Made by a program: the position numbers and the translations under genes
DNA from: Helicobacteraceae bacterium
Lineage (GTDB): Bacteria > Campylobacterota > Campylobacteria > Campylobacterales > Sulfurimonadaceae
Assembly: GCA_030613795.1 (NCBI GenBank)
Contig: JAUWLG010000027.1
Location: forward strand, 1 to 10,605
DNA: 10,605 bases
Reading direction: 5' to 3'
In this document: piece by piece, positions 6,871 to 9,044 of the stretch
Layout: each line of letters starts with the position of its first letter
Position numbering within the stretch: position 1 is the first letter of the stretch
Notes under the pieces: generated by a model
The model's database searches: none
What the model saw: the letters and a program-made list of their open reading frames with translations, nothing else
Told to the model about the DNA's origin: nothing

Positions 6871-7181
6871 GAGACCTCTGAATAAACCTGACATTCTCAG
6901 AGGGTTTTACAGAAGTGAGATTGTGCAAAACTTTTCTTGAGTCATAGCCATAGCTACGAGGATAGAAAATTTCACGATGTGGCATTTAGTGCCACCCTGC
7001 ATTGAGCTTTAGCTCTTTATGTGCAAGATCGCTTCTGTAAAGCTCTCCCGTAGGGCAAAAAGAGAAACACGCTATTACTGCGTTAAAAGCACTTGAAGCT
7101 ACCAGTAGCTCCTGCATACTTTCGCCTTGTACTAGCATATTTCTCTTTTTGCTGAGAACGTCAGGTTTATTCAGAGGTCTC
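6871..7181 (+). repeat. MITE-like structured element, copy 1 (311 bp)
   Basis: A non-coding element bounded by terminal inverted repeats of 30 bp (6871-6900 with 7152-7181) that match perfectly except for one pair (6893/7159); the outer 22 bp are perfect and begin GAGACCTCTGAATAA. AATT flanks both ends (6867-6870, 7182-7185); because AATT is palindromic it could be a 4-bp target duplication or part of the repeat. Inside are nested inverted repeats: TTTACAGAAG (6906-6915) with CTTCTGTAAA (7032-7041), GTGGCA-TTTAG-TGCCAC (6979-6995), GAGC-TTTA-GCTC (7004-7015), CCC-GTA-GGG around 7047-7055, and a perfect 13-bp pair GCAAAAAGAGAAA (7055-7067) with 7140-7152. The core 6915-6972 is 56/58 identical to copy 2. 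Orientation is given by that core. It encodes no transposase. A 65-codon minus-strand frame inside is judged spurious. Confidence 0.82.
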
Positions 7182-7240
7182 AATTGATACCTTAAAATAA
7201 TGATGTGATTTTAGCACATTCTATTCAAGAGACTGCAATA

Positions 7241-7249
7241 TGATACAAT
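7241..7249 (+). promoter_or_regulatory. extended -10 promoter for the COG3400 gene
   Basis: TGATACAAT (7241-7249) matches the extended -10 pattern TGnTAnAAT, with the gene's ATG 28 nt after it. No good -35 is seen, as expected for an extended -10. It lies in the 96 bp between element copy 1 and the gene, so the element does not separate this promoter from its gene. Confidence 0.5.
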
Positions 7250-7277
7250 CACGTCAGAAAAATAGAGATTGGTGTGT

Positions 7278-8684
7278 ATGAAAAAGATTTTGATTATCAG
7301 CGACAGTAAGATTGGGCACAACTTTGTCCAACGTGCTATTGATACTTTTGCTAAAGATAACCTTTACTATGTCATTCAAACCAAGGCTGACGAATTTGAG
7401 AACGCACCGGCGTCGCGTTTTAAGTTTTTTGAATTTGATCCGACCAGTCTTTATAAACTCTCTAATGTCTTGAAGATGGAGTTTGTCCAAGTCTTTATTG
7501 CCATGAAAAACCCTGCGGATATTGAGCATACCATTGCCAATATTCGTATAAGTAAAAAACAGCTCCGTATTATTGTTATCGATCATTGGGCGATGGATCT
7601 TAAAGAGTACAATGTGGTGCAGATCAACACCACCGAGATCCTTGCGTCACATATGTTCGACTACCTGCCAAATGTGCCTGTTGTCGCACAGAACGTCGGT
7701 TTGGGCGAGGGCGAGATCATGGATGTGTTGGTCCCGTTTGGAAGCTCATTTGTCTATCGACATGTCGGTGTGATCGAGCAGAAACAGTGGCGCATTGTCG
7801 GCATCTATCGCGGGGGTAAACTTATCTTGCCTGATGACAGGAAGATGATCCATCCAAATGACCAACTACTTTTGGTTGGCGAACCGTCTGTTCTTAACTC
7901 GGTATACCGTGCCATCAAAAGAGAGATCGGTCAATTCCCACAACCTTTCGGAACGAACCTCTACCTGTTTGTAGATATGATCAAAGATGATGTCAAAGAG
8001 ATAACCTATCTGGTTGATAAAGCGATCGCAGTGCATGAGAAATTCAGTAATCGCTTGATCATTAAGGTCTGTAACCCGAGTGATCTTGCTCTATTAGAGA
8101 AGATCAAAAGCAGACGCAGTGAAAATATTGTTGTCGATATCGACTACCAACAGAGCTATATTGAGGATGTGGTCTTAAATGATGTCAAACAGTACGATGT
8201 AGGTCTTATCATGGTCTCATCATACCTGTTTGCTAAAGATAAGATGCGTGAGATCCTTTTTGATGCAAATGTACCGGTGCTCTCCCTTGCCGAACGTTCC
8301 ATCGAAAAGATCAAAGATGCCGTGATCGTCTTGAATGACAATAAAGATCTTGAGAAGATCTCAACCACTGTCTTTGACTTCTCATCGCAGATGGGGTACA
8401 ACATTGAACTTTTGAAAAATGAAGAGGAAGAGAGCAGTGAACAAGATGAGATCATCGAACACTATCAAAACCTCTCTGCTATCTTCTCGAAAAATATTCA
8501 TGTCAATTTTCATCATGATAACCCTATCCGTAAACTCTCAAAACGTGAAAATTTTCTGCAGTGTATCCCTTTTACTGAAAAGATTCTGCAGGGCAAAAGT
8601 TCGACAATATTTTCAACTGATATTGAAGAACTCTATCACCGTCTAAACCGCTACCACCAGCTCTTTTTCCCGATAAAGATCTAG
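7278..8684 (+). CDS. COG3400 family protein with TrkA/RCK-like domains
   Basis: 468 residues, cytoplasmic, no signal or membrane segment. The ATG at 7278 is preferred to a TTG at 7269; the ribosome site is weak (AGAG about 10 nt upstream). Residues 1-135 begin MKKILIISDSKIGHNFVQRA and look like a degenerate TrkA-N/Rossmann-type domain without a clear GxGxxG. Residues about 145-215 (VLVPFGSSFVYRHVGVIEQ ... HPNDQLLLVGEP) look like a TrkA-C/RCK-C domain, including the 'hPxDxLLLVG' strand. Residues about 225-345 form a third alpha/beta domain (NLYLFVDM...NVPVLSLAERS), and an acidic linker (NEEEESSEQDE, 381-391) leads to a C-terminal region. RCK-type domains gate K+ transport by binding nucleotides or ions, but the function here is unknown. 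I recall the same gene between tgt and aroB in Helicobacter pylori (HP0282). It is flanked on both sides by copies of the structured repeat. Confidence 0.78.
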   Translation: MKKILIISDSKIGHNFVQRAIDTFAKDNLYYVIQTKADEFENAPASRFKFFEFDPTSLYKLSNVLKMEFVQVFIAMKNPADIEHTIANIRISKKQLRIIVIDHWAMDLKEYNVVQINTTEILASHMFDYLPNVPVVAQNVGLGEGEIMDVLVPFGSSFVYRHVGVIEQKQWRIVGIYRGGKLILPDDRKMIHPNDQLLLVGEPSVLNSVYRAIKREIGQFPQPFGTNLYLFVDMIKDDVKEITYLVDKAIAVHEKFSNRLIIKVCNPSDLALLEKIKSRRSENIVVDIDYQQSYIEDVVLNDVKQYDVGLIMVSSYLFAKDKMREILFDANVPVLSLAERSIEKIKDAVIVLNDNKDLEKISTTVFDFSSQMGYNIELLKNEEEESSEQDEIIEHYQNLSAIFSKNIHVNFHHDNPIRKLSKRENFLQCIPFTEKILQGKSSTIFSTDIEELYHRLNRYHQLFFPIKI

Positions 8685-8690
8685 TGCTAT

Positions 8691-8709
8691 GTGTGCGCTG
8701 ATTGCACAC
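8691..8709 (+). terminator. weak hairpin after the COG3400 gene
   Basis: GTGTGC (8691-8696) and GCACAC (8704-8709) form a 6-bp stem with a 7-nt loop just after the stop codon. A second small stem AGCTT-TTCT-AAGCT (8719-8732) follows. The nearest T-run is only at about 8749, so a rho-independent terminator is not certain. The remaining 8685-8777 holds nothing else recognisable. Confidence 0.3.
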
Positions 8710-8777
8710 TCGGTAAAAAGCTTTTCTAAGCTCCCATTTATTCACTGTTTTTTAAGTTGCTGTAAAGTATTATCTTA

Positions 8778-9044
8778 GGGCACTTCTAATAACCCTAGTC
8801 CGCCTCATGAGGTAAAGTGAGAGGTGAGATTGTGCAAAACTTTTTTTGAGTCATAGCCATAGCTACGAGGATGGAAAATTTTGTGCAAGACTGCCTCTCT
8901 CTTTGCCTCCCTGCGGGCAATACAGAGAAACACATACTCTACGTTGGTACTTCTTAGTTTAGCTACGGCTAGGCTTTCAAAGTACCGCCTTGATTATGAA
9001 TTTCTCTGTGTTGCTGAGGCTAACTAGGGTTATTAGAGGTGCCC
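8778..9044 (+). repeat. MITE-like structured element, copy 2 (267 bp)
   Basis: Same family and orientation as the 311-bp element at 6871-7181. Terminal inverted repeats cover 30 positions (8778-8807 with 9015-9044): 22 paired bases with one T-G wobble (8784/9038), two mismatches, then six more pairs. TTA flanks both ends (8775-8777, 9045-9047), an apparent 3-bp target duplication. The core 8824-8881 matches 6915-6972 at 56/58 bases. Internal pairs: AAAGTGAGAGGT (8814-8825) with GCCTCTCTCTTT (8893-8904), CCC-TGC-GGG near 8909-8917, GCAATACAGAGAAA (8917-8930) with 9001-9014, GGTACTT (8946-8952) with AAGTACC (8980-8986), and an 8-bp stem 8956-8963/8968-8975 closed as C(TACG)G. TTGTGCAAAACT (8830-8841) recurs as TTGTGCAAGACT (8881-8892). 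Compared with copy 1 about 45 bp after the core are missing. No coding sequence. Confidence 0.82.

Follow-up and report, generated by a model that had tools for sequence, protein, structure and literature searches.

The window analysed here is a 10,605-nt stretch of DNA from a Helicobacteraceae bacterium of the Sulfurimonadaceae (contig JAUWLG010000027.1 of assembly GCA_030613795.1). It contains two elements, at 6867-7185 (element 1) and 8773-9049 (element 2), which have a common core and one nested layout and are members of a multi-copy family in the host genome. The genes near them are presumably tgt-like, TrkA-like and aroB-like, names that we assign from reading their translations. From the outside inwards, the layout consists of an outer stem of 34-35 bp formed by inverted-repeat ends, arm A, a CCC-N3-GGG mini-hairpin and arm B. 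Arm A carries the core GATTGTGCAAAA...TGTGCAAGAT and a TAGC...GCTA tip, while arm B, about 98 nt long, has an AGCT-type tip and an internal loop with CGTT and CTTG. The parts are as follows.

6867-7185, + strand: element 1, end type a, 319 nt, oriented from arm A to arm B (outer inverted repeat, repeat pair, fold)
6867-6900, + strand: left outer arm of element 1, 34 nt, 97% complementary to 7152-7185
6901-7046, + strand: arm A of element 1, with the conserved core and a nested repeat (fold, alignment)
6973-7019, + strand: second repeat, nested in arm A and spanning some 47 nt with approximate limits (alignment with copies that lack it; stand-alone matches in the genome)
7047-7055, + strand: mini-hairpin of element 1, CCCGTAGGG (motif position, fold)
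7056-7151, + strand: arm B of element 1 (covariance model match, E 2.5e-17; the arm is itself among the model sequences)
7152-7185, + strand: right outer arm of element 1 (inverted repeat)
8773-9049, + strand: element 2, end type b, 277 nt, oriented from arm A to arm B (outer inverted repeat, fold)
8773-8807, + strand: left outer arm of element 2, 35 nt, 89% complementary to 9015-9049
8808-8908, + strand: arm A of element 2 (fold, positions)
8909-8917, + strand: mini-hairpin of element 2, CCCTGCGGG (motif position, fold)
8917-9014, + strand: arm B of element 2 (covariance model match, E 9.7e-20; the arm is itself among the model sequences)
9015-9049, + strand: right outer arm of element 2 (inverted repeat)

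A first-pass annotation had placed the elements at 6871-7181 and 8778-9044; both are real, and their true ends lie 4-5 nt further out. Its 58-bp core with 56 identical positions was recovered with the same two differences, within a direct repeat of 62 nt (6911-6972 and 8820-8881, 95% identity). The nested stems that it had described as complementary within each copy are present: the outer arms pair at 97% and 89%, the inner stem AAAGTGAGAGG/CCTCTCTCTTT pairs with a single mismatch, and the mini-hairpin is retained with a changed loop. Only short frames (77 and 65 amino acids) overlap element 1, and no frame of at least 60 amino acids overlaps element 2. The extra length of element 1 (319 nt versus about 271 nt in its nearest relatives) is the nested repeat of about 47 nt near 6973-7019, and by alignment this insert occupies the corresponding position in L002 and L003, both of end type a, and in L035, of end type b.

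Both elements fold strongly. RNA folding of their four strands gave z = -10.8 to -15.6 against dinucleotide shuffles, none of which folded as well, and DNA folding of the two + strands gave z = -11.1 and -10.9. An Rfam search of the window returned no family at gathering score, and a known RNA family was rejected as their identity. No clear promoter signal was found, and the interval 6800-9120 holds one terminator-like site versus a shuffle mean of 1.6.

Copies in Campylobacterota and their make-up

The window's genome (G000; 1.74 Mb in 314 contigs, 72% complete) has 61 match places for element 1 and 58 for element 2, counts that include partial matches and single arms and that take the strands of palindromic ends separately. 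In a set of 41 genomes, made up of this one and 40 relatives, 17 contain a DNA match to element 1. The best match in four genomes (G001, G005, G014 and G016) is to the nested repeat only; in G005 and G014, elements (L088 and L086) turn up among the weaker matches. A pattern for the arm-A core matched 47 stretches in genomes of named species, in some cases several per genome, and all have Campylobacterota-type titles (Sulfurimonas, Sulfurospirillum, Nitratifractor, Helicobacteraceae, Campylobacteraceae, Campylobacterales). By their record titles, many of the hosts are free-living sulfur bacteria. An arm-B covariance model built from 43 sequences and run on genomes of the phylum, with strict filters and at most 13 candidates scored per genome, found matches in 47 of 298 genomes (the window's included), representing 21 of 59 genera and 8 families. 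Around these matches, 49 loci (L236-L284) were classified automatically: 39 show the full layout, 8 are without outer inverted repeats and 2 do not pass the strict test; three places are duplicated and at least two loci (L240 and L244) contain model sequences, so that the independent loci number fewer than 49. The search of the host genome and other Campylobacterota that the first-pass annotation had proposed as a check thus yielded further copies with the same nested layout. Nothing useful came from searching plasmids and phages with element 2, or viral contigs with one arm-B pattern; element 1 was not part of the plasmid and phage search.

The length of the elements is narrow. Of 109 with both the mini-hairpin and an outer repeat, the latter sought over lengths of 240-340 nt, 97 measure 263-280 nt. 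A strict two-arm test was passed by 74 of 101 inverted-repeat candidates in matched loci, a share that gives no estimate of frequency because the loci were fetched by their match. The 148 arms of these 74 elements comprise 61 of type B, defined by the CGTT/CTTG motif, 67 of type A, assigned by similarity that is weak in some cases, and 20 of neither type. Most elements pair an A with a B arm (48); the others have A with an unclassed arm (11), B with an unclassed arm (7), two A arms (4), two B arms (3) or two unclassed arms (1). One-arm forms also occur: L100, L104, L116, L132 and L184, with arm A or one like it, and L058.

The outer ends, in contrast, are of several types. Clearly differing ends include TTGAGACC (type a), GGGCACC (b), TTGAACCC (c), TAGACTTCTTGC (d) and TAGACTTGTTGC (e), to which TAGACCTCTTTC (f), TAAGTGCCTGAC (g), TAAGTACCTCTC (h), TTATTACGCCACC and TTATTACCGCACC (i), ATACCA (j) and TAAGTAATAGGGC are added; some of these types may be related to one another. 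Interior arms and mini-hairpin are found repeatedly in combination with these differing ends, and the arm-B alignment spans types a-j. Its invariant CGTT and CTTG arise partly by construction, the arms having been chosen by that motif; its tip and constant length are shared without having been selected for. This combination of a conserved interior with changing ends looks new. Within one end type the ends are well conserved: among 20 copies of type b, conservation is 90-100% over the outer 16 positions, of which eight are conserved by construction, the copies having been picked by CACCTCTA; positions 21-26 are only 40-65% conserved, yet paired in 14-17 of the 20. Across genomes, copies of the same end type have a mean identity of 0.90 over the outer 16 positions and 0.66 over the inner part of the outer stem. 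Homogenization of the arm-A core within genomes was considered and rejected, as its conservation is general, with mean identities of 85-86% within genomes and 83% between them; single a/b pairs in G000 reach 98% identity in this core. Separately, outer-stem remnants of 41-53 nt that lack the arms were seen in L030 (1495-1535), L204 (1357-1397) and L207 (860-912), and are perhaps deletions through the hairpin.

Paired change within the fold

The covariation analysis used 60 two-arm copies similar to the window's arm A, or 57 after removal of copies at least 97% alike. Fourteen inverted repeats had been dropped as weak; these are mostly elements and include the type-b L044, L046, L052, L057 and L085 as well as ends g, h, i and j. 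Over 268 columns the alignment gives 106 pairs with 5460 Watson-Crick, 163 G-T, 232 A-C and 152 other cells, a Watson-Crick share that is partly by construction, since the pairs were chosen by a strand-symmetric rule on the same alignment. At least two Watson-Crick types, each in at least two copies, occur at 82 of the 106 pairs, and at least three types at 44. Of the 32 pairs that RNAalifold gives for arm B on its own, 28 have changed on both sides.

Between the closest copies, most differences affect a single side of a pair, whereas distant copies have changed on both sides with pairing kept. One-sided change stays near 10% of pairs (8.7-11.0%) at all distances, while two-sided change from one Watson-Crick pair to another climbs from 3.9% at 85-100% identity to 34.9% at 50-60% identity; copy-to-copy pairs are non-independent, and no probability is therefore attached to this trend. 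The unpaired share per copy is 3.8-18.1% with a median of 8.6% (7.5% in element 1 and 13.2% in element 2), and tends to be larger the more distant a copy is from its nearest one (r = 0.41). The dependence of one- and two-sided change on distance fits a fold that is kept in moving lineages and lost slowly after landing, and it does not fit rapid correction of one arm by the other. That one three-stem fold persists while most letters of its stems change suggests that the shape of the element itself matters for its survival or movement.

Mobility and insertion sequences with matching ends

Relatives hold parts of the gene order tgt, TrkA-like gene and aroB. At site 1 the element is absent from all six same-genus genomes (L137-L140, L151 and L153, of which L138 and L153 are nearly identical there), and at site 2 from all four. 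The interval between the tgt-like and TrkA-like genes in L137 (G006) retains AATTGAGA/TCTCAATT; these outermost 8-9 nt of either arm look like the footprint of a lost copy of element 1. In genome G167, several type-b copies are nearly alike (L266-L269, L271, L272 and L274-L276), seven of them with equal arm-B model scores; some have TTAA on both sides, which suggests recent movement.

Type-b elements carry a 4-bp target duplication: the flanks match exactly in 19 of 39 elements, where 5.3 are expected and none of 5000 shuffles did as well (13 of 31 in an earlier test). The duplicated 4-mers are TTAA, TTTA, TAAA and similar, and lengths of 2, 3, 5 and 6 bp show no significant excess for this end type. 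The two window sites alone had pointed to no target duplication, a view overturned by the pooled type-b test. For type d, a 5-bp comparison matched 24 of 35 letters versus 20.0 expected (p 0.009; seven elements), one result among many tests.

The type-b ends are shared with insertion sequences (IS). The type-b end pattern, at no more than one mismatch, occurs in 15 of 21 genomes, and its reversed control in none. In G031, two such ends lie 1350 bp apart around an IS5-family transposase (L172) with domains PF01609 and PF05598 and a match to NF033581 (E 2.1e-79); of 60 genomes, 8 have relatives of this protein, a number of them fragmentary or weakly matching. IS with ends GGGCACCTCTAAAAAC around an IS5-family transposase are present in G031, G032 and G007 (the window's genus) and, broken, in G052. 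Their flanking 4-mers are TTAA/TTAA in G032 (L193), TATA/TATA in the broken copy (L196) and TTAA/GTAA in G007 (L194), while L172 has the non-matching TTCT/TATA. An exact-motif search found no arm motif in these four IS. Because the type-b-ended IS carry neither arm, the interior of the elements is not a deletion product of these IS, and the copies are not all deletion derivatives of one known IS, the outcome that would have undermined the first-pass proposal. Two single-contig genomes, G002 and G027, have 14 and 26 end matches and lack PF05598, so many copies may be stranded.

Other transposition systems were also considered. The Y1_Tnp domain (PF01797) is found in 20 of the 41 genomes and is absent from G008 and G010, both 100% complete and both containing elements, as well as from the 72% complete G000; transposition by Y1/RAYT (REP-associated tyrosine transposase) enzymes is thus not a requirement. 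A transposase-like gene in L124 (2714-4172), which we take to be of IS4 type from its sequence, abuts element ends on both sides; its own ends, CAACACCATTGACTTAAG, are unlike those of the elements, and it was rejected as a parent. Two further observations concern repeats with element-like ends. In L173 (G031:C31, about 1280-7050), several units follow one another head to tail at intervals of 800 bp, either as a real tandem array or as an effect of assembly; every unit has type-b-like ends and a frame of 124 codons. Contigs of G026 (L211 and L212) and G017 (L217 and L219-L222) break inside repeats with type a- or c-like ends that continue into other sequence, as multi-copy IS would; no transposase matching these repeats was found.

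Interpretation and alternatives

In action, the elements are MITE-like (miniature inverted-repeat transposable elements): they are short, have no coding capacity, end in terminal inverted repeats, the feature by which part of the copies were collected, and show insertion polymorphism. Type b adds the 4-bp duplication and ends shared with IS, and so bears most of the MITE marks tested, apart from that of a deletion derivative. We favour, at a probability of roughly 0.55, the reading that they are MITE-like elements moved by IS transposases in trans, the fold being selected at the level of DNA. Elements 1 and 2 would then both represent a mobile DNA element of Campylobacterota that is non-autonomous and has outer ends of the insertion-sequence kind; the type found on element 2 matches that of IS5-family elements, whose transposase may act on it in trans. 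Between the ends lies a module foreign to those IS, namely two hairpin arms of about 98 nt and the CCC-N3-GGG mini-hairpin, for a total of about 270 nt. Pairing would be kept by selection in moving lineages and decay in landed copies, as the comparison of close with distant copies indirectly indicates. The likeliest reason would be that the transposase, or else a partner protein, recognizes an extruded or single-stranded form, exposed for instance in replication, by its conserved arm tips and internal loops.

Several observations weigh against this reading. IS with end types a (that of element 1), c and g were searched for and not found, and the window's genome, at 72% completeness, contains no intact matching transposase, only a DDE-domain fragment. 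Eleven elements with end type a gave no sign of a target duplication, and the flanks of element 2 itself, CTTA and TTAG, do not match. Finally, the covariation counts are uncorrected for relatedness.

The first-pass annotation had preferred selection on folding, as RNA or as single-stranded DNA, to simple MITE decay. The many further copies with the nested layout, in which pairing is kept through two-sided change, are indeed not explained by simple decay; the elements are nevertheless mobile and MITE-like as well, and the RNA option is weakened. A structured RNA, acting as a small RNA or as part of an mRNA and with mobility a secondary matter, would account for the very stable RNA folds on both strands and for conserved unpaired motifs and tips like those of many RNA families, and arm B has more G-T than A-C cells overall (89 versus 49). 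Two column pairs, with 42 and 20 G-T cells, account for most of that excess. The rare non-Watson-Crick cells are about equally divided between G-T and A-C (65 and 60 in the whole alignment, 28 and 36 in arm B), which speaks against folding of RNA from one strand, for which a G-U preference is expected (the control for this preference comprised four tRNA genes only). Read on the same strand, the two lineage-wide wobble sites are A-C in arm A (28 of 57 copies) and T-G in arm B (26 of 57), and so favour opposite strands; an RNA required in both orientations may still be compatible with these results. Together with the lack of an Rfam family and of a clear promoter signal, this makes the RNA explanation unlikely, and we prefer a fold of single-stranded or extruded DNA. 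Arm complementarity could also be maintained by mutation without selection, through template switching in the hairpin that copies one arm onto the other. Template switching is known for quasi-palindromes, and it would explain both the paired change and the missing G-T preference. Correction is not rapid, however, given that one-sided differences predominate between copies of more than 94% identity, though it may be slow, and the narrow length and the conserved unpaired loop motifs and tips are left unexplained; we judge this origin improbable.

The inverted-repeat ends, the 4-bp target duplication, the many gene-free copies and the ends shared with the IS5 family are all expected of ordinary MITEs, internal-deletion derivatives of IS whose fold is a by-product of their inverted repeats. 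Such an origin is nonetheless very unlikely, for the four IS examined hold no arm motif, the interior arms and mini-hairpin recur with different ends, and inner stems distinct from the IS ends stay paired. Selection by the host for an intergenic insulator, terminator or mRNA stabilizer would fit the mostly intergenic placement, with 12 of 91 elements inside open frames (at least 60 codons on each side) versus 124 of 197 sites taken at random from these loci. Loss of gene-breaking insertions would produce the same placement, though, and the elements are missing from both orthologous sites in relatives, while terminator-like sites between 6800 and 9120 do not exceed the shuffle mean; we give this explanation hardly any credence. 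Somewhat more plausible, if still doubtful, is a structured DNA module (arm A, CCC-N3-GGG and arm B, or two B arms back to back) that travels as a passenger with many IS ends across Campylobacterota, is moved by whichever transposase is present, and is recognized by a protein as a folded single strand.

MITEs are usually seen as passive, decaying leftovers; in this family, elements without genes hold to roughly one length and one fold in many genera, while most of the letters in their stems change. Should selection on folded DNA indeed be at work, the family would be a tractable system for studying how the structure of DNA influences transposition inside the cell. It would also give a mobile-DNA marker for Campylobacterota, one without a match in Rfam.

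Compared with known systems, the elements resemble MITEs of the IS5 family in being short and gene-free, with inverted-repeat ends, a type-b 4-bp duplication and ends shared with an IS5-family element (NF033581). They differ in an interior that is not IS-derived and recurs with other ends, in their narrow length and in the strong paired change of the inner stems. Integron attC sites act as folded single-stranded DNA in which shape counts over sequence, a likeness to the role proposed here, but they are single, shorter hairpins recognized by a tyrosine recombinase. The Bacillus cereus repeats bcr1-bcr18 are described, in the portion of the source consulted, as multi-copy repeats of 100-400 bp with features of mobile DNA in one bacterial group, their mobility being tied to a TTTAT motif and a mechanism like site-specific recombination (PMC6542083). 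The present elements are likewise multi-copy, group-limited and marked by mobile features, in different hosts; the likeness is one of description. Repetitive extragenic palindromic (REP) sequences and bacterial interspersed mosaic elements, which are associated with RAYT (Y1) transposases, are also palindromic intergenic DNA repeats in many copies; REPs measure 20-40 bp according to the consulted part of the source (PMC3733652), unlike the roughly 270 nt seen here, and Y1_Tnp is absent from G008 and G010. The lack of target duplication typical of IS200/IS605 and REP/RAYT systems is likewise at odds with the 4 bp of type b. Tn3-derived inverted-repeat miniature elements are similar by description in being gene-free and moved in trans by the transposase of a larger element; their ends are of Tn3 type, as far as the part of the source consulted goes (PMC4133298). 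No description of the present family was found in the titles and abstract beginnings of the open-licence papers searched, and term searches in PMC2267715 and in the Arcobacter butzleri genome paper (PMC2147049) gave no match; the family is apparently undescribed so far.

The nested repeat in arm A of element 1 contains two short hairpins, GGCATTTAGTGCC and GAGCTTTAGCTC. Variants of it occur in other settings and in relatives (L013, L016, L020, L064, L066, L070, L072, L073 and L075), and L013, L016 and L066 hold a different repeat, in which a GATTGTGCAAAA-type motif, common to arm A, is combined with the nested repeat.

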